DNA of 64,000 nucleotides from a beta proteobacterium CB (GTDB lineage: Bacteria; Pseudomonadota; Gammaproteobacteria; Burkholderiales; Burkholderiaceae). Position 1 is the stretch's first letter. Every line of letters starts with the position of its first letter. Location of the stretch: positions 1,981,721-2,045,720 of the forward strand of contig CP004348.1 in NCBI GenBank assembly GCA_000342265.1. Direction: 5' to 3'. The position numbers were made by a program, and so were the translations under genes. The notes below the pieces were generated by a model. That model was not told the origin of the DNA. It ran no database searches and saw only the letters and a list, made by a program, of their open reading frames with translations. This document shows, piece by piece, positions 14,372 through 44,143 of this stretch.

Positions 14372-14452
14372 ATGAAAAAACCACCCGAAGGTGGTTTTGG
14401 TATTTCTTGGTGGCCCGGGGCGGAATCGAACCACCGACACAAGGATTTTCAA
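14372..14452. repeat. Left island boundary: 81-bp direct repeat with tRNA-Phe 3' half (attL-like)
   Basis: Identical over 81 bp to 21720-21800: the GGTGGTT terminator followed by the 3' part of tRNA-Phe (minus strand; 14404-14452). The match stops right after TTTTCAA in the anticodon loop, and what follows (14453 on) is not tRNA. This is the original 3' half of the gene now split by the island. Confidence 0.85.
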
Positions 14453-14799
14453 ATATCCTCCGATAGACCGCTTCGTCTATGAAATCAACTGGTTACGCCA
14501 CCCCAGACATTTCGTGCGCAAAATTTACATATTGTGTCGGTCAAAATATCGAGCGTAATCAGAAAGTTACGATAGCGTGTAGAAACTGTGCGCAAACTTT
14601 GGATGAACATGTATCAGTCACTCACCATGGTTACTCGCAATGTCTTTTTGAACGACAAACTATTTTCACTATACCTTTCATCCTTTTTAGGTACATTTTT
14701 TATACAGATAAAAACCCACTGAAACCATGCTCTTTCGGTGGTGATCTCAAGGGGTGGTTAAAAATCACCACGGCCTGAGAAAAGTAGTTAAACAAAAAT
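14453..14799. other. Non-coding left end of the island
   Basis: No convincing gene. The first bases restore an AGGAT/ATCCT stem around the anticodon loop with two extra bases, as expected of an attP arm. A 99-codon frame at 14479-14778 shows no recognisable protein features and is not called. Confidence 0.4.
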
Positions 14800-15114
14800 T
14801 TATTGCGAGGAATTTTTTGATGCTAGTGGATCTACCTCTTTGGGCTTTAGCTTGTCAAACATTTGCTTAACTTTCTTCATCTGCTCTTGCGAACTTAAAT
14901 CTAATGCATTGCTGGGTAATGGCTTTGGGGGCGGTGGGGGTGGGGGTGGTACTTTCAACTTAACTTGTTTTGGCCTACCCTTCTTGGGCTTTATCTTTTT
15001 TGCTTGATTTACCGCATCAGTATTCTGCTGTTGTATTGCAGACCATGTGCAATTAGATATTAGCTTTAGAAGATTGAGCTGGTCTTCACTGCTTGTAATT
15101 TCATTAATGAGCAT
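14800..15114 (-). CDS. Hypothetical proline-tract protein near the broken integrase
   Basis: A 104-residue protein with a helical N-terminal part, a basic segment (AKKIKPKKGRPKQVKLKV), a run of eight prolines and a charged C-terminal helix (SSQEQMKKVKQMFDKLKPKE). There is no signal peptide or membrane segment. Its position just downstream of the truncated integrase, next to the attachment site, suggests an element-encoded accessory protein, but I cannot assign a function. The ribosome-binding site is weak. Confidence 0.5.
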   Translation of the reverse strand: MLINEITSSEDQLNLLKLISNCTWSAIQQQNTDAVNQAKKIKPKKGRPKQVKLKVPPPPPPPPKPLPSNALDLSSQEQMKKVKQMFDKLKPKEVDPLASKNSSQ

Positions 15115-15176
15115 GGATTTCTCTGTAGTATCCCCTTAGATTCGTACATTTAAACTGCTGTGCACGATCAGAGGGA

Positions 15177-15923
15177 CTACCGAGCACAGGCAGAAAACAA
15201 CACTTTAGGAATGTCGGCTTGACGGGGGATACTACAAAATAACTTGGTAATCTCTTCGCGACTAAAGGCAGGGCGTGTTTTACCTTTATGGCCACGAGTA
15301 GTTAATTTAGGTATTGCCACACGCTCACTAATCCAACCTTTATTAACTGCTGTCTGCTGTAGCTTTGCCCAAGCACTGGCAAAGTTCATTAAGGTACTGG
15401 ATTTGGGTACTAGTCGCATTTGCCTATTACGCCAAATCTCAAACTCATGAACGTCTGTATAGGTTATTTCCTCTAGCCGCTTATCCATGAAATAGGGCAG
15501 AAAATATTTCTCAATACAAGTGATGTAGCTTAGATAAACGCTCTTACCTATACCTTCACCCAAATCACGCCGCATTTCATAAAGCGTGGCGTGCGCTATT
15601 TCTGCGAAGGTGGGTACTTTTTGTGCAAGCCCTAATCGCTGGCGAAATCTGGCTTCATCATATAAATCACAGGCAACTCTGACAGCATGCTCAATTGAAG
15701 CTTGCTTAGTTGAGACTCTATCCCATGTGTTGTCATGTCGTTTAAAACGACATTGCCAGAGAGGGCTATTTGGTCTGCGGAAGAGAACTACATCACCATC
15801 ACGCAAATAAAGCTCTGTAGGCTCTGCGTATTTAAGTTGGCTAAGTGTTGTAGGTTGGTGATATTGAGGTGGTGAGGGTAGAACTTCTAGATTCGTAAGT
15901 TTGGTGACTACGCCCTTAGGCAT
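15177..15923 (-). pseudogene. Tyrosine recombinase/integrase, truncated (catalytic domain lost)
   Basis: The 248 residues correspond to the N-terminal part of the integrase at 29804-31018. Shared features are LYLRDGDVVLFRRPNSPLWQCRFKR (compare LTLFRRPKSNKWQCRFK), a helical SAM-like core-binding domain ending LVPKSSTLMNFASAWAKLQQ, and the RPAFSREEITKLF stretch that precedes the catalytic domain. The Arg, His-x-x-Arg and Tyr residues are all missing; the frame ends after an unrelated PKVLFSACAR. It lies about 0.7 kb from the left boundary, where the integrase of a tRNA-targeting element is expected, so it was probably the original integrase and is now inactive. Confidence 0.8.
15736..15752 (-). 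repeat. 17-nt near-palindrome, copy 1 (inside integrase remnant)
   Basis: Minus strand reads TGTCGTTTTAAACGACA. It lies within the coding sequence, encoding CRFKRHD, where the intact paralogue has CRFKLPNG. Confidence 0.7.
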
Positions 15924-15995
15924 GGGCTTGCTGTAAAAGTTTTGAGCTCATACAGCTAGTTTATTTTCAGAGATTCGGATTGGGCAATTAAAACT

Positions 15996-16012
15996 TGTCG
16001 TTTAAAACGACA
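15996..16012 (-). repeat. 17-nt near-palindrome, copy 2
   Basis: Same 17-mer on the minus strand, intergenic, 73 bp upstream of the integrase remnant and just downstream of the PAS kinase gene. Confidence 0.75.
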
Positions 16013-16121
16013 TTTTTGTACGCCAACTGGCTTGTAACTTAAGACTCAGAATGCATAAATGCTCAATTAGACTCCATTTAGTATCTAATAACTTTAATAA
16101 TCAGAGTGCAATCTAATTATC

Positions 16122-17366
16122 TTATTGCTCTGAACTAATAACTTCCCAAGCACTATCCCAGCAGCAAACATGAGCATAGTCATTGATCACATGAATTGCT
16201 GGCCGTTGATTTTGTGGAAATTTGGCTACATAGCTTTTTGCCACCTCTGCTGCACGAGCGTTATCTTTTGCTATTCTCTGAATTAGCTCTTCTAACCTTA
16301 ACTTTTGATTGATGGGGGCTAGTTCCCCTAGTTCTTCAATTTCCATTTGAAGATTTTGTGTATTAACACTCATGGCTCCTAGAGGATTATTGATTTCATG
16401 CGCTAAAGCGCTAACAAGATTGCCCATACTGGCAGCTTTAGCAGAAGTGGCCATTGACTTAAGTAGTTGATTTTTTTCAAACAATGCTTTGCTAAGCTCT
16501 TGATTTACTTTTTCAAGCTGCTCAAGCTTGACTAATTTTTTATTGGCAAGGCTTAGCTCAATACCACGCTCAATAGACTCTTGCTCTGCTAATTTTCGAG
16601 CAGTGATATCACGTATCGCCGATACGGTTGCGCGCTTTCCATTGATCAGTTCTTGCATTGCGATGGAACGACTTTCAAAGTGATATACCGTTCCGTCTTT
16701 TGCAGTTAATGGATACTCTATCGATATACTCGCATTGCTCCTTAGAACCTGCTGGATAAAAGCGTAAAAATTTTGAGCAACCTCTGCTGGAAAAATATCA
16801 TTAAAAGTTTTTCCAATAAGACTTGGATAATCTGGAAAAAATAGTGCAAGATATTTAGATTGGTTTGTTTCAACATATCGACCATCTTCATCGATGATTA
16901 AAAGAAGATCTGGAATGGTTAAACTCAAAGCAGTGAGTTTTGCTTCCTGCTGCTTCTTTTCAGTTACATCCAAAATATATCCAGACCGGGTATAGACACC
17001 CTTGACCATCTTATTGGTTTGCTGGGAAGATACTTGAACCCATTTCACTAAACCGCTGGCAGCAATTACCCTAAGTTCGATAAAGAATTTTTCTCCTGTT
17101 TCCCTAGTTCGCAAGTCTTCTGCAGCCAAACGCCCTACGTCGTCGGGGTGAATATATTTCCAAATAAGGCTTGCATCTTTTCCAAGATCTTCTCGTTCAA
17201 TTTCTAATATCTCTAATAGGCGATCATTAAAGTAAATGAAATGGCTTTCTCCATCAAGAGCCAAATAGTACTCATACACGCCACATGGAATGGCGGCATG
17301 GATTCGATGAAACCTATCTTCATAACTTTCGATACTTTGGTCGGGAGCTTTGTTGGGTATTTGCAT
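16122..17366 (-). CDS. PAS-domain sensor histidine kinase, lacking the ATPase domain
   Basis: A 414-residue cytoplasmic sensor with two PAS domains (residues ~15-140, including the FHRIHAAIPCGVYEYY and IHPDDVGRLAAEDLRT PAC-type region; and ~145-270, ending IRDITARKLAEQES), a coiled coil (~270-315), and a HisKA-like dimerisation helix with the phospho-acceptor in SALAHEINNPLGAM. The HATPase_c domain is absent; the sequence runs into an unrelated Trp/Cys-containing tail after about 40 residues. It is therefore a 3'-truncated kinase that cannot autophosphorylate alone. No response regulator is adjacent. The gene is flanked by inverted copies of the 17-nt motif. Confidence 0.75.
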   Translation of the reverse strand: MQIPNKAPDQSIESYEDRFHRIHAAIPCGVYEYYLALDGESHFIYFNDRLLEILEIEREDLGKDASLIWKYIHPDDVGRLAAEDLRTRETGEKFFIELRVIAASGLVKWVQVSSQQTNKMVKGVYTRSGYILDVTEKKQQEAKLTALSLTIPDLLLIIDEDGRYVETNQSKYLALFFPDYPSLIGKTFNDIFPAEVAQNFYAFIQQVLRSNASISIEYPLTAKDGTVYHFESRSIAMQELINGKRATVSAIRDITARKLAEQESIERGIELSLANKKLVKLEQLEKVNQELSKALFEKNQLLKSMATSAKAASMGNLVSALAHEINNPLGAMSVNTQNLQMEIEELGELAPINQKLRLEELIQRIAKDNARAAEVAKSYVAKFPQNQRPAIHVINDYAHVCCWDSAWEVISSEQ

Positions 17367-17492
17367 TTTGCAATTCTAGATTTACTCGGCAAAACTATCA
17401 ATTAATTAAAATCTTTTCTTCCGCCATTGATAATAATTTTCAGTACATTTCTGTCATCATCTGATTGTTATATCTTCATATCTATCTAAATT

Positions 17493-17509
17493 TGTCGTTT
17501 TAAACGACA
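17493..17509 (+). repeat. 17-nt near-palindrome, copy 3
   Basis: TGTCGTTTTAAACGACA on the plus strand, upstream of the PAS kinase gene. Confidence 0.75.
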
Positions 17510-17971
17510 CGCCAAGTAACCACCCTAGATGGTTCCCACGGTTAGGCAGAGTTAGAGCAAATAGACAGCGGTGGGCAAAGTCCGAAAGCGTCAATTACTG
17601 TAGGCAACAGTAAACACTAAGACTAGAAAAGAAAAATGGCTACCTAAGCAGTCATTTTGAAGTTCTTGGTGGTGGATAGTTGACTACTTGCGAACTTGCT
17701 ATTTCGACTACTTAGTAATTAAAAGTAAATGAGAGGGAATGCGCGGTAAGAACTTAACAGCTTAATTGCACCAATATGATGCATTTACTATTTCTGGATT
17801 TGAACCCAAGTCCACTCTAACTTTTAAGGTCTGCTCCGCAGCGGTTGCTGCCGTTCGAGTTTTCAACGTGAATGCCCTTGGCGTGCCGGATTGCGATCAC
17901 TCCTATTCATGCATCGTGGTAATGCGCAGAGACAGGTTTCAGGCGCGCAGTTGACATTGCTAGAGAGTTGA
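17510..17971. other. Gene-poor junction region
   Basis: Contains a decayed AACCACC..TGGTT hairpin (17518-17536) and a short TTCTTGGTGG matching the 3' edge of tRNA-Phe (near 17658), but no convincing gene. GC content rises sharply from about 17930 on. Confidence 0.4.
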
Positions 17972-18184
17972 CAACAGCGTGCAGAGATCTGCAAGCTCGA
18001 CGAGCAAGACTGCAGCAGCATCAAGCATGGTGCGATCAATCACCTGGGCGTGTCGCCAGCGTTGATGGCTTACCGCGAGCACAAGGCCATGCTGGGCAAG
18101 ACTTAGGCCGGCGAGAAGTTCCCGGCGGTTGTGATGATGGGGGCTGGCTGGATGGTGGTCCCCGACATCAAACCAGGCAAGTGA
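17972..18184 (+). pseudogene. GC-rich 3' gene remnant with an internal stop
   Basis: One reading frame gives a protein-like C-terminus (...SSIKHGAINHLGVSPALMAYREHKAML...) interrupted by a single TAG at about 18102 and continuing in frame with AGEKFPAVVMMGAGWMVVP to a TGA at 18182. This looks like the decayed 3' end of a larger gene from a GC-rich donor. There is no start codon and I do not recognise the family. It sits at the left edge of the GC-rich block. Confidence 0.5.
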
Positions 18185-18188
18185 TGGT

Positions 18189-18219
18189 GAGTGGCTGACC
18201 CGCCCTGGGTCAGCCACTC
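18189..18219. terminator. Long perfect hairpin between convergent GC-rich genes
   Basis: Thirteen-bp perfect stem GAGTGGCTGACCC / GGGTCAGCCACTC with a 5-nt loop. It lacks a T run but is placed as terminator for the cytochrome c gene (minus) and the remnant (plus). Confidence 0.65.
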
Positions 18220-18293
18220 AGTCGGGATCGCTGTTTGCAGGTGATCCCGTCCTTTTTGTCAGTTGGCGCAACAGCGCTGTGGCCAACCAGCCA

Positions 18294-18641
18294 TCACTTT
18301 GATCCACCCGAAGCCTTGGCCACGTAGGCCGCCAGGGCGGCAATTTGCGCATCACTGAGTTTGCCGTTGTAGGACGGCATCTGCCCAATGCCGTTGCGCA
18401 GCGCGGTGGCCACGCGCTTGGCATCGGGCTTGAGCTCGTCCAGGCTGGGGCCCACGGCGCCTTCGGCTCCCGCGTCCTTGAGCGCATGGCACAGGGCGCA
18501 GGCAGGCACCGCGCCTTGGCCGAACAACACCTTGCCTTGTTGAAGTTGCGCGGCATCGTCGGCGGCGTGCACGGGCAGCACTGTGAATGCCAACGACCAC
18601 AGGGCAGCGACCAACGCGTGTTTTTGGATTGTGCGCTTCAT
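18294..18641 (-). CDS. Periplasmic c-type cytochrome (sulfite dehydrogenase electron acceptor)
   Basis: A 115-residue monohaem class I cytochrome c. A signal peptide (MKRTIQKHALVAALWSLAFTVLPVHA) is followed by the haem site CALCHAL, the GPSLDEL segment and a distal Met candidate in IGQMPSYNGKLSDAQIAALAAYV. Its ATG overlaps the stop of the molybdenum oxidoreductase gene (ATGA), so translation is coupled and the pair is a SorAB-like unit: the cytochrome takes electrons from the molybdenum enzyme in the periplasm. Codon use is very GC-rich, unlike the flanking chromosome. Confidence 0.85.
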   Translation of the reverse strand: MKRTIQKHALVAALWSLAFTVLPVHAADDAAQLQQGKVLFGQGAVPACALCHALKDAGAEGAVGPSLDELKPDAKRVATALRNGIGQMPSYNGKLSDAQIAALAAYVAKASGGSK

Positions 18642-19870
18642 GCCACGCTCACTTTCACGGCGTGGTCGGCCCAGCTGGTGTTGTTGTAGCCGCCCGCGTT
18701 TTCCATGCGTTGTTCGGGCTGCACGTTGCCTGCGGTGTCGGTGGCTCGGCTCGCCAGGGTGAACTGGCCCGCCGGCAGGCGCGCCGCAAAAACAAACTGC
18801 CGCCACGCAAAGCGGCCGAGGTCGGGCCCCACCATGCGCGCGAGCTGCCAGGTTTTTCCGCCGTCCAGAGAAACCTCGACCTTGGCCACCGCGTTCATGC
18901 CGCCAAACGCCACGCCATGGATCTGTGTGTCACCCGCTTTAAGCGGGGCGCCGTCCGTGCCGGGACCGTTGATCCACGACTTCACCGTCATTTCCTGCAC
19001 CGATGGCTGCGACGGGTCGCCCTTCGCGCCGGGCGGTGAAATGCGGTAGCCGTGCGACATGATGCGTGCGTCGGTCTCCTGAGCGGTGAAGGCCAGGCGT
19101 TTGACGTACTTGATGTTGTTCACGCCCGTGTAACCCGGCACGATCAAGCGCAGTGGGCCGCCGTGGGCCAGCGAAATCGGCACACCGTTCATTTCCCAGG
19201 CCAGCAGGGCATCGGCGAGTGCGGCAGCAGGCACCGAGCGTTCCACGATCACGCTCTTGGGGTCCAGTCCATCGGGGAGTTTTTCGCCGCCTGTGCCGGT
19301 GAGGTAGGCCATGCCGGCCTCCACGCCGCCCAGGGCATCCACCACCCAGCGCACCGGCACACCGCTCCACACCACACAGCCTGCTGCGCCCACTTGCCAA
19401 GGCGTTCCACTGGGCTTGTTGGGGAAGTAGCCGCGTCCGTTGCCAGAGCATTGCAACACCATCGCCGTGGTCTCGATGCCTATGCGCTTGAGGTCGCCCA
19501 GCGTGAGTTTGCGCGGGTTCTTCACCCCCTCGATGTTGATCTCCCAGGCATCGCGGTTGCCCAGGATCGAGGCGTCGGGCGCGGGCAGGTTGTTGCGGAT
19601 GTAGAGCTGCTCGGACGGCGTGATTACGCTGGTGCCGAACACACTGCGCTTGGTCTCAATGGTGGTGCTGCTGTGCACGATCAGGCTGGCCGGGTCCTTC
19701 CAGCCCACGTACGCTGGCAGAGGCTTGGCAGCACCGGCCAAGGCGACGGGCGCGGTCTCACCAGCAGCGGCTGCGGTGCGGCCAAAGCTGGCCAGACCAA
19801 CGGCAGCCAAAGCAGCGCCGCTGCCGGCCAGCAGGTGGCGCCGGGGGAGCGAGGTGGGTTGTTGGTTCAT
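18638..19870 (-). CDS. Molybdopterin-dependent sulfite oxidase-type dehydrogenase (SorA/SoxC-like)
   Basis: A 410-residue exported molybdoenzyme. A twin-arginine-type signal (PRRHLLAGSGAALAAVGLA) is followed by the oxidoreductase molybdopterin-binding domain with the molybdenum-ligand Cys in VLQCSGNGRGYF, the SGVPVRWVVDALGG and GGPLRLIVPGYTGVNNIKYVKRL segments, and a C-terminal Mo-co dimerisation domain (KVEVSLDGGKTWQLARM...). Predicted to oxidise sulfite to sulfate in the periplasm and pass electrons to the coupled cytochrome; a related S-oxide or thiosulfate role is possible. The start at 19870 has GGAG upstream. GC content far exceeds the neighbourhood, a sign of transfer from a GC-rich betaproteobacterium. 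No sox genes or cofactor genes are nearby. Confidence 0.85.
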   Translation of the reverse strand: MNQQPTSLPRRHLLAGSGAALAAVGLASFGRTAAAAGETAPVALAGAAKPLPAYVGWKDPASLIVHSSTTIETKRSVFGTSVITPSEQLYIRNNLPAPDASILGNRDAWEINIEGVKNPRKLTLGDLKRIGIETTAMVLQCSGNGRGYFPNKPSGTPWQVGAAGCVVWSGVPVRWVVDALGGVEAGMAYLTGTGGEKLPDGLDPKSVIVERSVPAAALADALLAWEMNGVPISLAHGGPLRLIVPGYTGVNNIKYVKRLAFTAQETDARIMSHGYRISPPGAKGDPSQPSVQEMTVKSWINGPGTDGAPLKAGDTQIHGVAFGGMNAVAKVEVSLDGGKTWQLARMVGPDLGRFAWRQFVFAARLPAGQFTLASRATDTAGNVQPEQRMENAGGYNNTSWADHAVKVSVA

Positions 19871-19934
19871 TTCTGGGGTCTCCGGTGGTTGGGCGTCGTG
19901 CGCCGGTTGGGGTGAAAGGGGTGAGCGGTTGATT

Positions 19935-20008
19935 CGTTGACAGGATCGCGCCCATGCCTGGACTGGCAAAAGCGATACCAGCGAAATTAAAAATATCTTT
20001 CTCAACAA
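19935..20008 (-). other. Possible signal-peptide remnant at the right edge of the GC-rich block
   Basis: In frame with, and upstream of, the molybdoenzyme start lies an AT-rich stretch coding RKIFLISLVSLLPVQAWAR, which looks like a Sec signal peptide. It switches to GC-rich sequence at about 19955, so a native exported gene may have been cut here. A TTG is the only in-frame start. Confidence 0.35.
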
Positions 20009-20113
20009 ATAAATTATGTTAGCACCATTTTCAACTTAATGTTTAGGCAATTGATTGCTTAGTAAATATTAAATTTTTCGCCATTATTTACTCTAAATCA
20101 TTAAGGGGCCATT

Positions 20114-20464
20114 ATGGCTTGGATCATCACCAAATACTTACTAACAGCCGCAATGGTTGTATTCATTTCTGAAGTGGCAAAACGAAGCGATAAGTTGGGC
20201 GGGTTTATTGCCGCACTACCTGTGATGACACTGCTCACACTGACTTGGCTCTATATTGAAAATCAGCCGGAGGAAAAGATAGCTAATCATGCCTATTACA
20301 CATTTTGGTATGTTATTCCTACGCTACCAATGTTTCTGCTGTTCCCATACCTACTTCCAAAAATTGGGTTTTGGTTAACTATGGGTGCGTGTGTAGTGGC
20401 AACAGTCATCTGCTTTGGCTTATTTACCTTAGCTATGAAGGCCTTTGACGTTCAGCTGTTGTAA
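20114..20464 (+). CDS. DUF3147/GlpM-like membrane protein, island copy
   Basis: A second copy of the four-helix protein at 11175-11525, same length (116 aa) and nearly the same sequence; differences are conservative and clustered in helix 1 and the C-terminus. The AAGGGGCC before the ATG is a plausible ribosome-binding site. Here it stands directly upstream of the island copy of the methyltransferase, whereas the chromosomal copies are separated by the TonB-like gene. The divergence indicates acquisition from a related strain rather than a fresh duplication. The function is unknown. Confidence 0.75.
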   Translation: MAWIITKYLLTAAMVVFISEVAKRSDKLGGFIAALPVMTLLTLTWLYIENQPEEKIANHAYYTFWYVIPTLPMFLLFPYLLPKIGFWLTMGACVVATVICFGLFTLAMKAFDVQLL

Positions 20465-20468
20465 ATTT

Positions 20469-20485
20469 TGTCGTTTTAAACGACA
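20469..20485 (+). repeat. 17-nt near-palindrome, copy 4
   Basis: TGTCGTTTTAAACGACA on the plus strand, between the island DUF3147 and methyltransferase genes. Confidence 0.75.
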
Positions 20486-20531
20486 CAGCAATCATAAGAA
20501 GCATAGAATAAAGATATACAACGGAAGAGTC

Positions 20532-21146
20532 ATGAACAATAAAGATCACTGGGAAAAAGTTTACAACACAAAATCTCCCGAGTCGGTGAGTTGGTTCGCT
20601 CCGCATTTGGAAATCTCCCTAAATCTTATTCATCAAGCAAGCTCAAGCAAAGACTCAGCCATTATTGATATTGGGGGTGGCGAAGCAACCCTGGTAGATG
20701 ATCTTCTATCTGAAGGTTATACCGATATTAGTGTTCTCGATATTTCTCAAAAAGCAATTGATGTCGCAAGAAATCGTATTGGAATCTTGGCAGATAAGGC
20801 TCATTGGTATTGCGCCAACATCACTCAGGCAACACTCCCTCAAAACTACTTTGATATTTGGCACGATAGGGCCGTATTTCATTTTCTAACTGAAGAAGTA
20901 GATCGAATGAGATATATCGAGCAAGTCATGCGCTCAGTAAAGCATGGCGGATACGTGATTATGTCTACTTTTGGCCCCGAGGGTCCTGAGAAATGTAGTG
21001 GCTTAGATGTCGTTCGCTATGACGCAAAAAATTTACATGGTCAGTTTGGTAAATCATTCAAGCTGATTAATAGCTCGACGGAGATTCACAAAACTCCCAT
21101 GGGCACTACCCAACAATTTCTATATTGCTTCTGTAGGATGGAATAA
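20532..21146 (+). CDS. Class I SAM-dependent methyltransferase, island copy
   Basis: Same length and architecture as the chromosomal enzyme at 9575-10189 (motif I AIIDIGGGEATLVDDL, ISVLDISQKAID, YFDIWHDRAVFHFL). Substitutions concentrate in surface helices while the SAM site is unchanged, so the enzyme is probably active. The ATG at 20532 is preceded by GGAAGAG; a longer frame start at 20445 would run through the 17-nt motif and is rejected. A short hairpin (AATAGCCCA / TGGGCTATT, 21152-21174) follows. Confidence 0.8.
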   Translation: MNNKDHWEKVYNTKSPESVSWFAPHLEISLNLIHQASSSKDSAIIDIGGGEATLVDDLLSEGYTDISVLDISQKAIDVARNRIGILADKAHWYCANITQATLPQNYFDIWHDRAVFHFLTEEVDRMRYIEQVMRSVKHGGYVIMSTFGPEGPEKCSGLDVVRYDAKNLHGQFGKSFKLINSSTEIHKTPMGTTQQFLYCFCRME

Positions 21147-21151
21147 ATGAA

Positions 21152-21174
21152 AATAGCCCAACATGTGGGCTATT
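21152..21174. terminator. Hairpin after the island methyltransferase
   Basis: Nine-bp stem AATAGCCCA / TGGGCTATT with loop ACATG. There is little T run on the plus side. Confidence 0.5.
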
Positions 21175-21178
21175 GAGA

Positions 21179-21203
21179 TTCTTGGTGGCCCGGGGCGGAA
21201 TCG
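21179..21203 (-). repeat. Short tRNA-Phe 3'-end fragment
   Basis: 25 bp identical to the 3' end of tRNA-Phe (CCA end, acceptor and part of the T arm) and its flank. The match stops inside the T arm and is followed by unrelated sequence: a third, shorter relic of the target gene. Confidence 0.7.
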
Positions 21204-21239
21204 GCCTGGGCCTAGGATGCTTAATCCTGCTTGCTACTA

Positions 21240-21635
21240 TTACATCTTCACAATTTTCCAAGCACCATTTAAGAAGCCGTCTCCAGTCTTATCTCCTGGC
21301 TTGGTATCTTTAACCCAGAAATACAGGGGCATTCCTTTGAATGCTAATTGCTTTTTGCCGTCATCACGAGTGATTACAGAATAATCGCCAGACACTGCTG
21401 GACTACCATCAACTAATAGTGGTGGCCAGTTGGTGGCACATGGGCCATTACACATAGACTTACCTGAACCAGCCGCATCTTTGGCAAAGGTATACAGGGT
21501 CATATTATTACTACCTACTAACATGCCATCATTTACTTTGGTATATGGCGCCATGGCTCCGCCCGTCATCGACGCACATGCAGCTAATGTAGCAGCAGCG
21601 ATCAAACTAATTAATACGCCCTTAATACGATTCAT
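21240..21635 (-). CDS. COG4315-type lipoprotein with Yx(F/W/Y)xxD repeats
   Basis: A 131-residue predicted lipoprotein (signal MNRIKGVLISLIAAATLAAC, Cys20). The mature part has the family pattern: a LYTFAKD motif, the CNGPCATNWPPLLV segment with paired cysteines, and a second LYFWVKD motif followed by PGDKTGDGFLNGAWKIV. These secreted repeats are common in proteobacteria; the function is unknown. It sits in the island between the tRNA fragment and the complete tRNA-Phe. Confidence 0.8.
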   Translation of the reverse strand: MNRIKGVLISLIAAATLAACASMTGGAMAPYTKVNDGMLVGSNNMTLYTFAKDAAGSGKSMCNGPCATNWPPLLVDGSPAVSGDYSVITRDDGKKQLAFKGMPLYFWVKDTKPGDKTGDGFLNGAWKIVKM

Positions 21636-21719
21636 GTAGATCCCCTTTAAAAGTTAAGTTAACACTCTACTGGTTATTTATGTTTGAAGTATGACGTGAT
21701 TAAAACTAAGGGGCTAGGC

Positions 21720-21800
21720 ATGAAAAAACCACCCGAAGGTGGTTTTGGTATTTCTTGGTGGCCCGGGGCGGAATCGAACCACCGACACAAGGATTTTCAA
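21720..21800. repeat. 81-bp direct repeat, internal copy
   Basis: Identical to 14372-14452; here it continues into the 5' half of the tRNA. Confidence 0.85.
21723..21745. terminator. GGTGGTT-family terminator downstream of tRNA-Phe
   Basis: Stem AAACCACC / GGTGGTTT with loop CGAA, part of the 81-bp repeat. It follows tRNA-Phe on the minus strand. Confidence 0.75.
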
Positions 21801-21831
21801 TCCTCTGCTCTACCGACTGAGCTACCAGGCC
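21756..21831 (-). tRNA. tRNA-Phe (GAA), complete copy inside the island
   Basis: A 76-nt cloverleaf with encoded CCA: acceptor GGCCTGG pairs with CCGGGCC (one G-U), D arm GCTCAGTCGGTAGAGC, anticodon loop TTGAAAA (GAA anticodon), T arm GGTTCGATTCC. A TATAAT-like -10 (21842-21847) lies upstream. It is the only intact tRNA-Phe in the window; two outer copies are half genes. Confidence 0.95.
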
Positions 21832-21942
21832 AAGAGATGAAATTATAAATGAAACTCCCTTCCAGCCCGAAAAAAGGGTCAATAGCCGATAAGTCTTGGG
21901 CAAACGCTGAAAAACAGAGACAAAAGGCTCTTGTTTCCCACC

Positions 21943-22455
21943 CTAAGCACCGATAGCTGCAGCCTTCACTCTAGCGGCATGAATTTTCTTGTAGCTATCA
22001 ATCAGGCGATGATGTCTGTCTAGACCATCTAACTTCATGTTTGTGGGAGTCAAGCCAAAGAATCGGACTGTACCGTCCACCGAGCCCACGACGGCATCCA
22101 TTCTCTCGTCACCATACATCCGGCGAAAATTCACTATGTAGTTTTCAAGCTCAAGATCGTCATCTAGCAAAATCTCTAGCACTGCATTTAGTGCCTGATA
22201 AAACAATTTACGCTCGACCGTATTGTCGTTGTACTGAAGGAAGGCACCCACTAATTCTTGGGCTTGATCGAATTGTTTCAAAGCTAGATGAATTAACAGC
22301 TTTAACTCAAGAACTGTTAACTGACCCCATGGCGTATTTTCATCAAACTCAATGCCAATCAATGTGGCGATATCACCATATTCATCCAACTCATTATTCT
22401 CTAGCTTCTCAAGTAGCTTGCTTAAACCCACCTCACCCAATTGATGCAGATTCAA
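21943..22455 (-). pseudogene. C-terminal fragment of an OsmC/YcaO protein
   Basis: About 170 residues. The first 27 (LHQLGEVGLSKLLEKLENNELDEYG) match the last residues of the truncated YcaO gene at 44144, and the rest is a helical tail (LTVLELKLLIHLALKQFDQAQELVGAFLQYNDNTVERKLF...) that the 44144 copy has lost. There is no ATG or ribosome-binding site; the 5' part is replaced by a WYL regulator fragment at about 22456-22471. Nucleotide identity to 43956-44144 is high but not perfect (roughly 14 differences in 228 by my count), so it derives from a related strain. Confidence 0.85.
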
Positions 22456-22456
22456 A

Positions 22457-23020
22457 ATGTCGGCACGAAAAAGTGATGTTGAATGCTTTCAGGAGGCTGG
22501 TGTAGCCTTGTTAAAGCGTAAGCGACTACAGATTATTTACTACGCAAGAAGTTCAGACAAAATAACGGAAAGAGAAATATCTCCTCAGCGTCTTATCTTC
22601 TACCGCGATAACTGGTACCTAGACGCATATTGCCATCTACGTAAAGAGCTTAGAAGCTTTGCTGTAGATAGCATCAAGCAAGCATTGATTACAAATAACA
22701 AGGCTGATGAGGTTTCAGATAAACAATTACAGGAGTTCTTTGCTGAGAGCTATGGAATCTTTTCAGGAAAAGCCAATCAGCGAGCAAAACTTAAATTCAC
22801 ATCGGCAAAAGCAAGATGGGTGGCAAATGAAACTTGGCACTCACAACAAACTGGCGCATTCGACAAAGATGGAAACTACATCCTTGAGTTTGATTACAAC
22901 CAAGATCCTGAGCTTGTCATGGATATTCTCAAACATGGTTCAGATGTTGAAGTTCTCGCTCCACCCAGTCTTCGCAAACGAGTTAAAGATGAACTAAACA
23001 AAGCATTAAACAATTATTAA
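22457..23020 (+). pseudogene. WYL-domain regulator fragment (HTH lost)
   Basis: Encodes the C-terminal 187 residues of a WYL transcription regulator: a WYL core (ISPQRLIFYRDNWYLDAYCHLRKELRSFAVDSI) plus a WCX-type C-terminal extension (LEFDYNQDPELVMDILKHGSDVEVLAPPSLRKRVKDEL). It aligns throughout with the full-length paralogue at 36518-37486 from its internal MSARK onward; the N-terminal winged HTH (about 135 residues) is absent. The first bases are shared with the abutting YcaO fragment, marking the recombination point. A truncated product might still be translated from the internal ATG. Confidence 0.8.
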
Positions 23021-23031
23021 TTGAGAGGTAT

Positions 23032-23523
23032 ATGAGAGAACCGCTACAACTAATTACAAAAGAATCTCCAAGACAAATTATTTTTGAAGACTTTAAATTG
23101 GATTTGCCAATAACCGGCGGGTGGGGCTATGACTTCGAAAGCGCCTGTGTTATTGATAAAAACGACTCCATAGTAAGCAAGGGAATCCCCTTCAACGGCG
23201 TAAGTATTGAATATGTGTTTGTTGAAAAACGCATCTACGAAGAGATGGTTATTTTTCGTCAAGCCAATGAAAAATACTCTGGCATTCGATGGGAGCTTAA
23301 AACACAAGAGCTTCTTTTTAGGGACGATAAGCCCTACGATAAATTAGTTTTTAATGTTGTTGGATTTACAGATGAAGTTTGGGATGAGCTTACTAGTCGA
23401 TTTGAAGCAATAAAAATAAATGGAAAACTGGAGCTAATAAGTGAATTGGATGCCTATAGAGAATCTAAGGCGCACACTAAGGCGCCAAAAAAAATTGGGT
23501 TGTACTTTTTCATATTCTTTTAA
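23032..23523 (+). CDS. Hypothetical protein following the WYL fragment
   Basis: A 163-residue soluble protein with no recognised domain. The sequence alternates strands and helices (QIIFEDFKLDLPITGGWGYDFESACVI, FNGVSIEYVFVEKRIYEEMVIFRQA, KLVFNVVGFTDEVWDELTSRFEAI). The gene starts 11 nt after the WYL fragment with a GAGAGG ribosome-binding site, so the two formed an operon; the WYL protein may have controlled or cooperated with it. The C-terminus (KKIGLYFFIFF) is hydrophobic and may be a frameshifted or truncated end. It is not found beside the full WYL gene at 36518. Confidence 0.6.
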   Translation: MREPLQLITKESPRQIIFEDFKLDLPITGGWGYDFESACVIDKNDSIVSKGIPFNGVSIEYVFVEKRIYEEMVIFRQANEKYSGIRWELKTQELLFRDDKPYDKLVFNVVGFTDEVWDELTSRFEAIKINGKLELISELDAYRESKAHTKAPKKIGLYFFIFF

Positions 23524-23593
23524 CTTGTTTTGTTAAGCAAATTAAAACATAGCGTACCAATATTAATTATTAGCTTTATAGCTAATATCTATT

Positions 23594-23620
23594 AAAAAAC
23601 CACCCGAAGGTGGTTTTTTA
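23594..23620. terminator. Bidirectional terminator between convergent genes
   Basis: Eleven-bp stem AAAAAACCACC / GGTGGTTTTTT (23594-23604, 23609-23619), loop CGAA. Confidence 0.9.
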
Positions 23621-23641
23621 GCAAGCAGTTTAAAAACATTT

Positions 23642-24691
23642 TCAGTTTAAAGACTTCATATCAATTACAAATCGATACTTCACATCACTTTTTAAAATGC
23701 GCTCATAAGATTCATTGATGTAAGACATGTCAATCATTTCAATATCGGAAACAATTTGATGCTCAGCACAAAAATCCAACATCTCTTGTGTTTCTGCAAT
23801 ACCCCCAATTAAAGAGCCAGCTAATTTTCTACGTTTAAAAATTAAATTGAAGACTTCGATTGATGGGTGCGGATCAGCTGGCGCACCAACTAGTGTCATT
23901 GTTCCATCTTTTTTCAAAAGCTGAAGATAAAGATCTAGTTTATGTGGTGCGGCCACGGTATTTAAAATAAAGTCTAATTGATTAATATAGTTAGCAATCT
24001 GAACCTCATCGGTTGAAATACAAACCTCATCTGCGCCAAGCTTTAAAGCATCATTCACTTTATTTTTAGAAGTCGTGAATAAAACAACCTGAGCTCCCAT
24101 AGCGTGAGCGATTTTTACAGCCATATGCCCTAAACCACCCAAACCAACTACGCCTATCTTTTTTCCTGGCCCAACACCCCAATTTTTAAGAGGTGAGTAT
24201 GTTGTGATACCGGCGCATAAAAGTGGTGCAACACTAGGTAAATATTTTTCATCATGCTTGATACTTAAAACAAATGCCTCCTTAACAACGATTGATTTGG
24301 AATAACCACCAAAGGTGTTTTCACCACCAAATACTGGGCCGTTATAGGTTCCTGTAAATCCCGTTTCACAGTATTGCTCATCATGTTCGGAGCAAGATGG
24401 GCATTTGCCACAACTATCAACCATACATCCAACGCCAACTAAATCACCAACTTTAAATTTACTAACTGTTTTGCCAATTGCACTCACTCTTCCTACAATT
24501 TCATGTCCAGGAACCGAGGGATACAAAGTATTTTTCCATTCATTTCTTGCAGTATGAATGTCAGAGTGACAGACGCCGCAATAAAGTATTTCAATTTCCA
24601 CATCATCCGAATTCGGGTTGCGCCGATCAATCTCCATTAACGATAAAGGCGATGAAGCGTTTTGAGTGCCGAATGCTTTTACTTTTGTCAT
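23642..24691 (-). CDS. Zinc-dependent NAD(P) alcohol dehydrogenase (YahK/CAD-type)
   Basis: A 349-residue medium-chain dehydrogenase. The catalytic zinc ligands lie in CGVCHSD, GHEIVG and the LCAGITTYSPL region. The structural zinc site is CGKCPSCSEHDEQYC, and the nucleotide fold is GVVGLGGLGHMAVKIAHAMGA. The overall pattern is that of cinnamyl-alcohol-dehydrogenase-like aldehyde reductases such as YahK, which reduce a range of aldehydes with NADPH. The motif residue after the third strand (TTSKNK) is consistent with NADPH preference. It is monocistronic, in the island, with AT-rich codon use similar to the chromosome. Confidence 0.85.
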   Translation of the reverse strand: MTKVKAFGTQNASSPLSLMEIDRRNPNSDDVEIEILYCGVCHSDIHTARNEWKNTLYPSVPGHEIVGRVSAIGKTVSKFKVGDLVGVGCMVDSCGKCPSCSEHDEQYCETGFTGTYNGPVFGGENTFGGYSKSIVVKEAFVLSIKHDEKYLPSVAPLLCAGITTYSPLKNWGVGPGKKIGVVGLGGLGHMAVKIAHAMGAQVVLFTTSKNKVNDALKLGADEVCISTDEVQIANYINQLDFILNTVAAPHKLDLYLQLLKKDGTMTLVGAPADPHPSIEVFNLIFKRRKLAGSLIGGIAETQEMLDFCAEHQIVSDIEMIDMSYINESYERILKSDVKYRFVIDMKSLN

Positions 24692-24886
24692 GTTTTTTAT
24701 AACCTTGCTTATTAAGATTAGAGTCTTGATTATACGCCCTAATAATATTTTTTACTTTTAACAGTGAATTCATAATTAACATCCCAATATGGCCACTCTA
24801 TTCTGTAATCATGGTTCTGAGCTCACACAAAATTAAAGATCTTTTTAACATCTCTACTGTATTGTTATGGCAGAGAATCAGGCCCT

Positions 24887-25466
24887 CTATTCACCAACTA
24901 TTACTTCAATCTGACCTGTTTTGATCCACTTAATTATTGCCTTTGAGACGGACTCTTCCCGACCCTCAAATGAATGATAATGCCCGCTCCCGCAAACATC
25001 ACCATTAGGATTTCCACCCTTTACTGTTATTAAATTACTATTTGAGTATGCTAAAACTGTTGAATAAGGTGTATAGGCGCATTGATCATCAGCATGATGG
25101 ATATTTAATGTTGGCGCCTTTAAAGACCGCATGTCAAATGATTCTGTTGAGTAAGCGTAGGCGCGATTTCGCGTCGCTACAGTTTGAGCGGCTGAATGAA
25201 TGCTGCCACTCAATTCATCCCCTAGATTTTTAGCAAGCCATTTTGAAGATATTGCCCCATAACTGTGCCCCATGACATAAAACTTTTTTAAGCCATACTT
25301 TTCTTTTAATACAGAAAGAATTTTTCTTACATCGTCAGCATGTTTATTTGAAGAGCGGTAATCATCGCTGCACGCTAAAGGGGTGTTACCTGCTGCAACA
25401 GCATTCTCGTCACTGGGGCAATCCATCACCACAAGTGAGATACCGGCTTGAGCAAAATGGGTGTCA
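24887..25466 (-). pseudogene. Alpha/beta hydrolase, 5'-truncated
   Basis: Encodes the C-terminal two thirds of a serine hydrolase: nucleophile elbow YVMGHSYGAISSKWLA, an acid-containing LNIHHADDQCAYTP segment and a C-terminal GSGHYHSFEG with the catalytic-His candidate. The frame stays open upstream only to about 25466 (HFAQAGISLVVMDCPSDEN) and then meets a stop; no start codon or signal peptide is present. At the same point a different gene begins on the opposite strand, so the 5' part was removed by recombination. Confidence 0.7.
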
Positions 25467-25899
25467 CGAAGTCATAGTGCTAGATGAAACTAGCAAATTT
25501 CACAAGCTACCCGAATACAACATAGAAAATATAAGTCGTAATTTCAATATTGAGTCTCTCAAACAAGATATTCTCAAATTTTCTCTAGCCCCGATTGTTG
25601 CCTTATATATTGCAGCAAAGATTTTTCCTAATCGATTTAATATGGAGAGAATGCTCGAATTTCTAACCAAGAAATTTCCTTCCGTTGCCAGCATGCAACC
25701 TCAAGGTAGGTCAAATGTTGTTTCAGCTTGGCTACAAACTAGAGTGCCGCTAATTAAAAAGGCCTATGGAAAATCATACGAGTGGAATAGTGATTTTGAT
25801 AGCCTGATTGCATCTTCACTTCTAAGCGAGTGGATCACAGTGAACTACCGTGGCGAACTTCCAAGTGAGGATGATATTAATTCTGTTGTTGATCAATAA
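25459..25899 (+). pseudogene. 3' fragment of an unknown gene
   Basis: Open frame (GCHEVIVLDETSKFHKLPEYNIENI...) of about 146 residues with protein-like composition, ending in ELPSEDDINSVVDQ. There is no start codon or ribosome-binding site at the 5' edge, which coincides with the truncated hydrolase (overlap 25459-25466). It contains a hydrophobic helix (LAPIVALYIAAKIF). I do not recognise the family. Confidence 0.5.
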
Positions 25900-25929
25900 A
25901 AACTTTGATGGCACAAACATGAAGATGCT

Positions 25930-26088
25930 TCATATACCTCCGAGCGCCGTCTGCCCAGTCTTGATCTTCTGCCTAGCTCGTTCAGCCTTAACGGCCTCTT
26001 GATCACGTTTAACACGATCCTTCATAGATTTAAGTCTTGCTTGCTCGGGGCTAAGGGGTTTGATTGGGGCTATTTCATCAAATCTCAT
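25930..26088 (-). CDS. Small charged mobile-element protein (52 aa)
   Basis: A frame from ATG 26088 to TGA 25930 coding a Lys/Arg/Glu-rich helical peptide (MRFDEIAPIKPLSPEQARLK, then KDRVKRDQEAVKAERARQKIKT). Its ATG begins 2 nt after the stop of the next small gene, so the two are translationally linked, and both follow the DUF6641 gene. The arrangement is typical of small accessory genes of integrative elements; the function is unknown. Confidence 0.6.
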   Translation of the reverse strand: MRFDEIAPIKPLSPEQARLKSMKDRVKRDQEAVKAERARQKIKTGQTALGGI

Positions 26089-27886: not shown

Positions 27887-28453
27887 ATGGCTCAAGCTAA
27901 AACCCTTACCCAAGCAGAAATTGATCAAGTTCTGCGTTACGCAAGCACTAGAAAATATCCCGAGCGCAATCGCGCTCTCATCCTCACCAGCTTTTTGACC
28001 GGGATGCGGGTCGCCGAGATCGCCTCCATAAAGTTAGGCGACATTGTCAATGACGATGGCACGATCAAAAACGAAGTAAGACTATCTGCTGCGCAAACCA
28101 AAGGCGGTCATCCTCGCACCGTCTTTATCGCTAGCAAACTCAAAGCGGAATTAGAAGTATATTTGAAGACCAGGCATATCAAAGATCCCACAATTGCTTT
28201 TTTTCACACTGATAGAAGACTTAAATTCACACCCAACGGTTTATGCGTATGGTTCTTTTCACTATATCGAGGTGCGGGCATTAGTGGTGCAAGTAGCCAT
28301 TCGGGAAGACGCTCGATGATTACCTCACTTGCCCAAAAAGGAATTGGGGTGCGAGTCTTAGCTGAAATCGCAGGTCATCGGTCGATTGCGGTAACCCAAA
28401 AATATATCGATGCCAATCCTGAAATGTGTCGCAATGCGATGGAATTAATTTGA
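27887..28453 (+). CDS. Short tyrosine recombinase (catalytic domain only)
   Basis: At 188 residues this is essentially a stand-alone tyrosine-recombinase catalytic domain. All key residues are visible: Arg41 (TGMRVAEI), Lys72 (QTKGGHPR), His138-x-x-Arg141 (SHSGRR), His164 (AGHRSIAVTQ) and nucleophile Tyr173 (KYID). The core-binding N-terminal domain of Xer or phage integrases is missing, yet the frame has a good GAAAGGATTTAC upstream sequence, so this is its natural size. Such short recombinases occur on plasmids and integrative elements, where they may resolve or invert DNA. It is followed by a long hairpin (28472-28500 region). Confidence 0.8.
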   Translation: MAQAKTLTQAEIDQVLRYASTRKYPERNRALILTSFLTGMRVAEIASIKLGDIVNDDGTIKNEVRLSAAQTKGGHPRTVFIASKLKAELEVYLKTRHIKDPTIAFFHTDRRLKFTPNGLCVWFFSLYRGAGISGASSHSGRRSMITSLAQKGIGVRVLAEIAGHRSIAVTQKYIDANPEMCRNAMELI

Positions 28454-28699
28454 TAGTCGGTTAAGAATTTAATCACTACATTTTCTTAATCACAAAAAAG
28501 TAGTGATTTTTCTCAAAAAGAAAATCGCCTGCTAAGCCCCTGTTCATGGGGATTTAATTTTTCGGAATTTTCTGTCAAGGAAATAAAACAACGCGGTGAT
28601 TTGTTTGAAAAATCCCAAAAATGTAGAGTTGCCCTTATCAACAAAGCACAAAGGCACTTTCGCCATTACCGCCTTGTTGATTTTTAAGGAGCTTTAAAA
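28454..28699. other. Intergenic region with two structured elements
   Basis: A hairpin AATCACTAC..GTAGTGATT (about 28472-28510) with trailing Ts acts as recombinase terminator. An ATCAACAA..TTGTTGAT pairing (about 28638-28680) lies just before the next gene and could be a leader structure. No gene is seen. Confidence 0.5.
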
Positions 28700-29740
28700 A
28701 TGGAAAATGCAATTGAAGTAACTAGCCATGCAGTAAACCCATCAGCAGCACAATCAACCACTCCTTCTGTGGATATTCGCAATATGAATGCCAATGTCAT
28801 CACTGAGGATTCATCGACTTTTGATGAAGTATTTGAGGTGGAAGGTGAAGTCAAACCCTCATCAAAACCTGTAGCGCCATCTGAACTCAAAGAATCGGAC
28901 AAAGATAAGGCGCAGCGTATGCAGGCAAGCTTGGATAAAGCCAAAGCGGCAAAATCTGCCAGCACCAGTCTCGTTCAGTACGAGCGTAAGCTCAGCTTAG
29001 AGGCTGCAACGGCAGATACATCAGCAATCATCCCAAAAGAGCGTAAAGAATACGTATCTGCGTTTAAAGCTGGCGTTGAGAAAACTGCTCGCAGTACTTT
29101 AGAGATGTGCCGCGTAGTATATGAAGCTGAGCAATCACTAGATAAGTTTCAATTTAAGACTTTTTGCGAAGAAGTCGGGCTTAAGGACTACAGCAGTACT
29201 GTTCGCAAGTTCTCTGCAATTGGTCGGGTATATCCACGCTTTATTCAATATGTGGATCAACTGCCAGCAAGCTGGACCAATATCTACTTGATTACTCAAA
29301 TTCCAGCAGATGCATTTGAGGAGTGCCTGACTAAGGGGTATGCCTTAAATAAGCTAACAGGCGCAAAGCTTGATGAGCTGGTCAAAAGCACAAAGGACAT
29401 CAATAAGATTGAAGAGCCTTTAAGCTTTGATAGCAAAAACTCTGGCTATGTATTTGCCAAGCTCTTGTTTACCAATAAACCTGATGACACCGATTGGCGT
29501 GCAATGGAAAAAGCATTAGCTGAAATCTCTGCCCGCTTACCAATCAAGTTTGTTATCAACAAAGAAGCTGGGGAGTTTGTGCAAGCTCGCCGTGAACAAC
29601 GCTATGAGCAGATCAAGCAAAGCAGCAAAAATGTCGATCTCAAGCCTGATTTATGGGATTTGGGCGCAGAAGCGAATGCCGTTTATAAAGTCGCAGAACG
29701 TACTGTTAATACAGCTGACAAGGCAGTCATTACTGTTTAA
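28700..29740 (+). CDS. Mobile-module protein with DUF3102/partition-like helical core
   Basis: A 346-residue soluble protein. The first 100 residues are low-complexity and acidic/Lys-rich; residues ~115-220 form a helical domain (TARSTLEMCRVVYEAEQSLDKFQFKTFCEEVGLKDYSSTVRKFSAIGRVYPRF) that resembles the DUF3102-type wing found in plasmid/element proteins that recognise DNA. The remainder has an alpha/beta segment (DTDWRAMEKALAEISARLPIKFVIN). Family placement is tentative. The AAGGAGCTTTAAAA sequence fixes the start. It probably serves regulation or maintenance of the module. Confidence 0.5.
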   Translation: MENAIEVTSHAVNPSAAQSTTPSVDIRNMNANVITEDSSTFDEVFEVEGEVKPSSKPVAPSELKESDKDKAQRMQASLDKAKAAKSASTSLVQYERKLSLEAATADTSAIIPKERKEYVSAFKAGVEKTARSTLEMCRVVYEAEQSLDKFQFKTFCEEVGLKDYSSTVRKFSAIGRVYPRFIQYVDQLPASWTNIYLITQIPADAFEECLTKGYALNKLTGAKLDELVKSTKDINKIEEPLSFDSKNSGYVFAKLLFTNKPDDTDWRAMEKALAEISARLPIKFVINKEAGEFVQARREQRYEQIKQSSKNVDLKPDLWDLGAEANAVYKVAERTVNTADKAVITV

Positions 29741-29747
29741 GACGACT

Positions 29748-29767
29748 GCTACCACTGCAGGGGTAGC
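29748..29767 (+). terminator. Hairpin after the DUF3102-like gene
   Basis: Stem GCTACC / GGTAGC with an 8-nt loop, followed by GTTGTTTT. Confidence 0.5.
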
Positions 29768-29782
29768 CGTTGTTTTAATACG

Positions 29783-29801
29783 TTGTTCCATTTAGAACAG
29801 G
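29783..29801. repeat. Partial copy of the TTGTTC..GAACAG repeat
   Basis: TTGTTCCATTTAGAACAGG, matching the inner part of the 71-bp repeats at 39092, 41387 and 42148. It abuts the stop codon of the integrase. Confidence 0.5.
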
Positions 29802-29803
29802 TT

Positions 29804-34142: not shown

Positions 34143-34154
34143 TGCTTCTCGCAG

Positions 34155-35888: not shown

Positions 35889-36203
35889 ATGAAATACCTA
35901 CTCACCATATTTTTGCTTGCCCAAGCAGCCCTATACGCACAAAAGAGCTTTGCTCAAGTAACTAATTTAGACAATTCACCCTACAACATGCAAAACAGCC
36001 AATACAACATGGAGAACTCACCCTACAACATGCGCAACAGTCCATACAACATGGACAACAGCGCATATAACGCCAGCGCCAAGAATGGGGTTTACGACAA
36101 TACGGGCAATCGCCTTGCTTACGAAGTTCAAGCTCCAACTGGGGTTACTAACTACTTTGACAATTCAGGTAATCGAATTGGCTATACGCCTGCCAAACGG
36201 TAG
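35889..36203 (+). CDS. Secreted NSPYNM heptapeptide-repeat protein
   Basis: A 104-residue exported protein. The signal peptide is MKYLLTIFLLAQAALYAQKSFA. Then come about five tandem heptads (NSPYNMQ, NSQYNME, NSPYNMR, NSPYNMD, NSAYNAS) and two copies of a YDNTGNRLAYEV / FDNSGNRIGYTP motif. The function is unknown; Asn/Tyr-rich repeats with a periodic aromatic may form a beta-solenoid or bind a surface. An AGGAGATAGTC ribosome-binding site supports the start. It is transcribed rightward, divergent from mod. Confidence 0.7.
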   Translation: MKYLLTIFLLAQAALYAQKSFAQVTNLDNSPYNMQNSQYNMENSPYNMRNSPYNMDNSAYNASAKNGVYDNTGNRLAYEVQAPTGVTNYFDNSGNRIGYTPAKR

Positions 36204-43702: not shown

Positions 43703-43917
43703 GGCGATTCCTCATTGTTAAATTCACCAATTGATTAAGAGTTTGGATTGCTTTTTGAATGTAACAGATTGCTTAAGTAACGCGAACGCGAAACTGCAGA
43801 TGCCATTCGTGAAATATTTGAAACCGCTGGGAGCCAATAGATTCGGTGCTTGTAGGGCGGTAGGTCACAACCAGCTAAGACCCAATGTGCAGAACTGTTT
43901 TAGTCCTCTATCCTAGC

Positions 43918-43955
43918 TTTTCAATCCTCTGCTCTACCGACTGAGCTACCAGGCC
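43918..43955 (-). pseudogene. tRNA-Phe 5' half at the right island boundary (attR-like)
   Basis: 38 bp identical to the 5' half of the intact tRNA-Phe, from the anticodon loop (TTTTCAA) to the first base. On the island side it continues as non-tRNA sequence, so this gene is not functional. Its ATTATA/TATAAT -10 is preserved at 43966-43971. Confidence 0.85.
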
Positions 43956-44143
43956 AAGAGATGAAATTATAAATGAAACTGTCTTCCAGCCCGAAAAAAG
44001 GGTCAATAGCCGATAAGCCTTGGGCAAACACTGAAAAACAGAGACAAAAGGCTCTTGTTTCCTGCCCTAAGCGCCGATAGCTGTAGCCTTTACTCTAGCA
44101 ACATGAAGTTTCTTATAGCTATCAATCAGGCGATGATGTCTGT

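Follow-up and report, generated by a model that had tools for sequence, protein, structure and literature searches.

Among 3919 islands counted in Islander, 159 carry 5′ fragments of their target tRNA gene and 3760 carry 3′ fragments, according to the part of PMC4383910 that deals with these classes. The same part attributes to the 5′-fragment islands a tyrosine integrase and a tRNA target, with the gene intact at one of their ends and a 5′ fragment of it displaced to the opposite end. The 5′ half is also used by archaeal integrases of the pTN3 type, a mode that the corresponding section of a review calls seldom encountered in bacteria (PMC8371274). A different relationship is seen in the tRNA-dependent lysogeny of actinobacteriophages, where, in the portion of PMC10865867 devoted to it, the host tRNA is split at a short core, its function is kept by element DNA, and the tRNA is rebuilt at neither junction, the whole gene being carried as cargo. 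Here, we describe a locus related to these systems in the last 64 kb (hereafter the window) of a single-contig Polynucleobacter genome of 2,045,720 bases, where an intact tRNA-Phe(GAA) gene stands inside a region bordered by two halves of the same gene. The region is very probably a two-sided accretion of two integrative elements, E1 on the left and E2 on the right, which inserted with opposed polarity at a single tRNA-Phe. It is an unusual arrangement of known processes, combined with one flank substitution.

All the traits listed above for the Islander 5′-fragment islands recur at this locus. In contrast to that minority class, the 5′ class is here common at a single gene within a single genus, has integrases that fall into groups of their own, and uses the same core as elements carrying the 3′ half, both kinds flanking one gene. 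Islands of the 5′ type are thus an already known minority, and it is the presence of two opposed classes at one gene that is unusual. The pTN3-type integrases are archaeal and have their gene split on integration, as stated in the part of PMC8371274 concerned, whereas the integrase frame is unsplit here. Like the phages of PMC10865867, the elements split the host tRNA at a short core and keep its function with their own DNA, but with each class the gene is made whole again at a junction. Tycheposons, as far as the description in part of PMC10872708 goes, also resemble the system by description only, being linked to tRNAs, equipped with a tyrosine recombinase and present in aquatic bacteria. 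No publication on tRNA-Phe islands in Polynucleobacter was found in the literature searched, and one earlier Polynucleobacter island paper may hold a prior description; the word tRNA is absent from PMC5644125, another Polynucleobacter island paper.

The tRNA-Phe gene is the sole tRNA of the window, and ARAGORN and Rfam agree on it (the Rfam model covers 21759-21831). Searching the whole genome with its 76 bases gave five matches, a single one of full length, and no second intact tRNA-Phe. Three of the others are fragments of the gene, namely positions 32-76 at the left border (E 2.4e-17), positions 1-38 at the right border (E 1.5e-13) and positions 56-76 within E1; the fifth match, 76% identical and located elsewhere in the genome, is a tRNA-Lys. 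A preliminary description of this DNA had proposed that the gene is complete and, conditionally, that it is single copy, and had called for the count made here; both points are borne out. A single copy is usual in the genus: of 186 Polynucleobacter genomes searched, 148 contain an exact 33-base sequence spanning the anticodon loop, 142 of them once only and the other six (G019, G101, G107, G142, G151 and G185) more often.

Each border of the region carries one half of the gene. On the left, the 81-bp block 14372-14452 is identical to 21720-21800 without a single mismatch. On the right, 21794-22022 and 43918-44146 differ at 13 of 229 positions, tRNA half included, and all 13 mismatches lie outside that half (13/191); a second block, 22375-22474 against 44147-44246, has 4 mismatches in 100. 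Taken together, the displaced 5′ half, leader and ycaO tail of the right border are 94-96% identical to the internal copy, and the right copy lacks 352 bases that are present internally (22023-22374). The outer halves have exactly the anticodon loop in common (7 bp, TTTTCAA), and joining them gives a 76-base gene identical to the internal tRNA-Phe. The preliminary description had reported the repeated 81-bp block, a right-flank copy of about 94% identity with some 14 mismatches in 228 bp by eye, and an original gene split by insertion; these observations hold, the break falling at the anticodon loop. Perfect identity of the copies, which it had named as the mark of a simple duplication, was not found.

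This border structure is what a tyrosine integrase inserting at the anticodon loop would be expected to leave. The scar edges (tRNA positions 32-38) place the crossover at a known tRNA subsite, and the intact gene is accompanied by displaced fragments in the same orientation, the 3′ fragment downstream and the 5′ fragment upstream, either of which marks an island in the part of PMC4383910 that sets out the definition.

Comparison with relatives allows the two scars to be considered separately. Scars were counted by exact sequence patterns over the 186 genomes, which makes the counts lower bounds; variants missed in this way include a 3′ scar preceded by A in G086 and a 5′ scar followed by T in G011. 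Scars with the 3′ half only were found at 76 sites in 52 genomes and scars with the 5′ half only at 39 sites in 32 genomes, with both kinds present in 10 genomes against 8.9 expected if they were independent. Order was scored at 38 oriented loci with exactly one intact gene, i.e., 37 stretches picked for their scars and the window; G064b, G011b and G076 were left out (no single intact gene in the stretch), and a 5′-half candidate of G065, which has 7 mismatches and lies on the side of the intact gene opposite to that expected, was excluded by a stricter mismatch limit. Without exception, 3′ scars (31 of 31) fall on the side of the terminator and 5′ scars (23 of 23) on that of ycaO, and five loci bear both kinds. 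In stretches with only a 3′ scar, a ycaO frame lies within about 170 bp of the core in 7 of 16 (G006, G008, G010, G038, G072, G073, G091), and in those with only a 5′ scar, ycaO is seen in 6 of 15, always behind the scar (G004, G036, G064, G107, G108, G112).

Each class is also found alone in relatives, with the gene rebuilt at a junction. An E1-like 3′-type element is present in G006 with no 5′ scar by exact pattern, the first 138 bp of E1 being 95% identical to its left end, and the terminus family of E2 is present in G036, G107, G108, G110 and G044 with no 3′ scar by exact pattern. The sequence just past the core is conserved among 5′ scars: of 30 loci drawn from the 39 sites, 16 belong to family A, the terminus of E2, three other families account for 6, 4 and 3 loci, and one locus fits none. 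In relatives that share this terminus family and the integrase group of E2, the element supplies the 5′ half with its upstream region and the old 5′ fragment is displaced. This 5′ mode is not confined to tRNA-Phe, being seen also at tRNA-Met, in four Polynucleobacter contigs (L178, L181, L188, L192). Outside the genus, no 5′-half tRNA-Phe scar was found in 218 genomes (5 of 249 genomes searched match, all Polynucleobacter), with a pattern that, being exact, could miss variant tRNAs.

The integrases are grouped in the same way. An integrase match was found in 18 of 41 stretches examined, and 17 of the 18 contain both a large integrase (about 404-460 aa; in one case the stretch ends within it) and a small tyrosine recombinase (about 190-253 aa), the remaining one, G009, holding two pieces only. 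A tree was made of 29 integrases, 26 labelled by polarity and 3 unlabelled, including a 225-aa piece (L192); the contig-search loci (80 of 152 loci) provided 10 of its rows. Polarity changes twice on this tree against 7.1 times for shuffled labels, and none of 500 shuffles gave a value as low. The remnant in E1 groups with the 3′-type integrases of G006, G076 and G064 (support 100/99), while the integrase of E2 groups with those of the 5′-type G043 and G105 (support 100/100) and is 96% identical to that of G043. Both lie inside their elements, as an open frame in E2 and as a remnant alone in E1. In six elements (G041, G046, G052, G069, G086 and one of G105), 160-190 bp separate the integrase frame from the end of the scar; in G011, G023, G066 and G068 the frame is on the rebuilt-tRNA side, and in the others it is further inside the element.

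Because the scar sides are constant, the classes occur alone and the integrases cluster by polarity, the two opposed elements are proposed to have rebuilt one tRNA between them. In this model, the 7-bp core in the anticodon loop would serve both classes as the recombination site for their related tyrosine integrases. The 3′-type element (E1, 14453-21719) would bring a 3′ half with its terminator and leave the old 3′ half on the terminator side; the 5′-type element (E2, up to 43917) would bring a 5′ half with its upstream promoter and leave the old 5′ half on the ycaO side. With both insertions done, a single intact tRNA-Phe would stand at the seam, and excision between any two cores would again leave one whole chromosomal gene.

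The flank substitution concerns the left end of E2. A YcaO_C domain is encoded in the frame 21943-22455 (E 1.4e-67), and this ycaO frame is cut at 22474, where it is fused to a fragment of a WYL-domain gene. Among the loci examined, this genome alone has a chromosomal leader and ycaO 3′ end, 643 bases in all, beside the intact tRNA of a 5′-scar locus, the sequence after the intact gene being unlike the ycaO side at the others. The 5′ half supplied in E2 is now accompanied by a chromosomal-type leader, and the segment that separates the core from the part shared with E2, about 570 bases in G105 and about 960 in G043, is missing from the window. The whole window contains no further 5′ half with at least 25 of 38 matching bases besides the two known, and comparing the leaders of relatives with 22475-25949 gave just two matches, of 21 and 36 bases (E 0.003). 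Open frames of ycaO are about 730-780 aa long in most relatives. The native gene has its C-terminal end deleted, and the genome matches YcaO_C in the displaced tail only, so that it seems to retain no complete ycaO.

In place of its own left end, E2 would have received the leader and ycaO tail of a strain about 94% identical. This could have occurred through aberrant excision in the donor strain, taking neighbouring chromosome along in the manner of a specialised transducing particle, or through homology-anchored illegitimate recombination of incoming donor DNA; either route would give this structure. Replacement of an element end by chromosome flanking the attachment site, as in specialised transduction, fits the structure, although no donor was found. 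The search for second ycaO tails as signs of repeated capture matched 118 of the 186 genomes at E 1e-10, 117 with one match (in G000, the internal tail itself) and G034 with two overlapping pieces, and revealed no other capture. Within the two-element model, a different order of events can be considered as a tentative possibility: one tract of a sister strain, comprising E1, the tRNA and the ycaO tail, would have entered with its homologous anchor in the left flank and an illegitimate junction, at 22474/22475, with a resident E2. One step would then explain the ycaO tail, the lost left end of E2 and the intact tRNA, but no donor tract was found, and E1 has no allelic marker by which to test it.

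The origin of the tail can be approached through its differences from the right copy. These sites were polarised by simple majority against 14 relatives (G044, the fifteenth, was dropped, its landmark being absent), and 13 favour a change in the internal copy against 5 in the right copy, one of the 5 lying at the deletion edge and several sites being near ties. At most differing sites, the base of each copy also occurs among the 14 relatives, and neither copy has simply decayed. Third codon positions account for 7 of the 11 differences in the ycaO coding part (binomial p = 0.04). Since polarisation and third-position bias fit such a history, the alleles appear to have separated in different strains that each had a functional ycaO, and the internal tail is probably chromosome of a strain about 94% identical. 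The alternative that leader and tail were copied locally in this genome and then diverged is unlikely: the two copies are indeed 94-96% identical to each other, against 81% for the best full-length match in another species among the matches listed, but their differences do not gather in one decayed copy, and the third-position bias is present though neither copy now lies in a whole ycaO. The preliminary description had read the mismatches as proof of related-strain origin. This origin is made probable by the alleles and third positions, yet the donor it expected from alignment with relatives did not appear, the copies being closer to each other than to anything else: no donor of the internal segment was found in the genus set among the matches listed (185 of 186 genomes gave some match, and the 81% figure speaks against a foreign origin), nor, in plasmid records, any place covering 80% of the query.

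It is very improbable that the region is instead a single 29.5-kb island with a 7-bp attP that destroyed the gene and brought a complete, essential tRNA-Phe as replacement cargo, a replacement that the preliminary description proposed for a single-copy gene and that occurs in mycobacteriophage tRNA-dependent lysogeny; the outer borders do share 7 bp of a split gene around an intact single-copy tRNA, and the cargo principle exists in phages (in the relevant part of PMC10865867), but the two border types separate in relatives, where single-class insertions rebuild the gene at one end each, the integrases of the two sides belong to different groups, and the 81-bp left identity is an ordinary 3′-type signature.

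Several points weigh against the accretion of two opposed elements. No integrase was found in 23 of the 41 stretches. Polarity does not correspond to one clade each, as a 5′-type group (G022, G066, G068, G023, G011) stands beside 3′-type rows and two tRNA-Arg 3′-type rows stand beside 5′-type rows; the E1 group is backed by just three other tRNA-Phe 3′-type rows, the fourth, G073, being a long branch; and the labels of E1 and E2 on the tree were assigned according to the hypothesis. The integrase of E1 is truncated, so that self-mobility of E1 cannot be demonstrated, and the left end of E2 differs from those of relatives, its original 5′ half being deduced. The codon-position test is based on 11 differences, and the two routes to the ycaO tail are not distinguishable. 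Finally, no excision or circular form was observed.

One consequence of 5′-type insertion concerns the promoter. An exact TATAAT is present within 30 bp upstream of the intact tRNA at 19 of 20 5′-scar loci (window included) and at 18 of 18 others, and at none of the 38 in each of seven windows further upstream; the exception, G044, has TACAAT in its place. Because this motif is kept at 5′-scar loci, a 5′-type insertion would swap the promoter for another intact-looking one. With some reserve, it can be suggested that in Polynucleobacter the promoter of the usually single tRNA-Phe is a mobile trait, repeatedly replaced by a 5′-type family with its own integrase groups and opposed by the 3′-type, and that the elements would thus control an essential tRNA and be hard to lose.

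Two opposed classes sharing a single-copy tRNA make it possible to ask directly how the specificity of an integrase determines which half of the gene its element carries, and whether the cell pays for a change of tRNA promoter. The locus also shows that a complete tRNA found between island borders is not necessarily cargo and may instead mark the point where two islands meet, a distinction relevant to software that sets island ends from a single fragment. As for the captured ycaO tail, it may preserve a natural trace of chromosomal DNA that travelled with a tRNA island or entered one. The coordinates of the features are collected in Table 1.

Table 1. Features of the tRNA-Phe region, in window coordinates.
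Feature	Position	Strand	Basis
Left border: displaced 3′ half (14408-14452, tRNA positions 32-76) with the tRNA-Phe terminator; ends at core TTTTCAA	14372-14452	minus	identical to 21720-21800
E1, degraded 3′-type element; putative source of the 3′ half and terminator now at 21720-21800	14453-21719		left-end similarity, scar type
E1 integrase remnant, 248 aa	15177-15923	minus	phmmer 8.3e-37 to E2 integrase; in tree with 3′-type rows
Older tRNA-Phe fragment (positions 56-76) inside E1, behind methyltransferase gene	21183-21203	minus	genome match
Intact tRNA-Phe(GAA)	21756-21831	minus	ARAGORN and Rfam; sole full-length genome match
Crossover core = anticodon loop, tRNA positions 32-38, common to both scars	21794-21800	minus	scar edges; same core in relatives
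tRNA leader (promoter) and ycaO 3′ end, in the place of E2's own left end	21832-22474	minus	YcaO_C; 94-96% to right flank; element-type leader not found
E2, 5′-type element body; right end at 43917 = terminus family A	22475-43917		relatives
Small tyrosine recombinase, 188 aa	27887-28453	plus	Phage_integrase 1e-23; paired with large integrase in relatives
E2 integrase, 404 aa, open frame	29804-31018	minus	Phage_integrase 2.4e-8; 5′-type tree group
Type III restriction-modification cargo of E2: res 31455-34142, mod 34155-35699	31455-35699	minus	sequence match
Right border: displaced 5′ half (43918-43955), native leader, remains of native ycaO tail	43918-44246	minus	sequence match to internal copy
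Native ycaO (OsmC/YcaO fusion), 591 aa, without C-terminal end owing to 352-bp deletion	44144-45919	minus	TIGR03549 matched to position 585 of 723

Within E1, the stretch 20101-21203 is 75-83% identical to genes in tRNA-Phe regions of other species and ends in the older tRNA-Phe fragment; it is perhaps what remains of an older insertion layer. Elements with family A ends and neither recombinase in the stretch (G036, G107, G108, G112, G110, G044) may be non-autonomous. Elements of about 4.5-9.2 kb with family A ends and no integrase found in the stretch (L126, L127, L128, L129, L139, L143) are candidates for mobilisation in trans. A phage or viral vehicle was considered and rejected, the matches to the integrase family of E2 being two viral contigs at 41% identity, phages at 26% and plasmids at 25-41%.

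In E2, a 346-aa protein without Pfam match (28700-29740) lies between the small recombinase and the large integrase, and the DNA of all three genes (27887-31018) is matched throughout in G043 and G105. A KAP-type P-loop NTPase (42455-43702) adjoins the right end of E2 and matches the candidate defence family PDC-S20. Two kinds of repeat are also present: a 21-base head-to-tail repeat inside an open frame (35970-36074), and a 42-base sequence in four spaced copies between 29783 and 42218, two of which lie in longer 77-base copies at 39086 and 42142.
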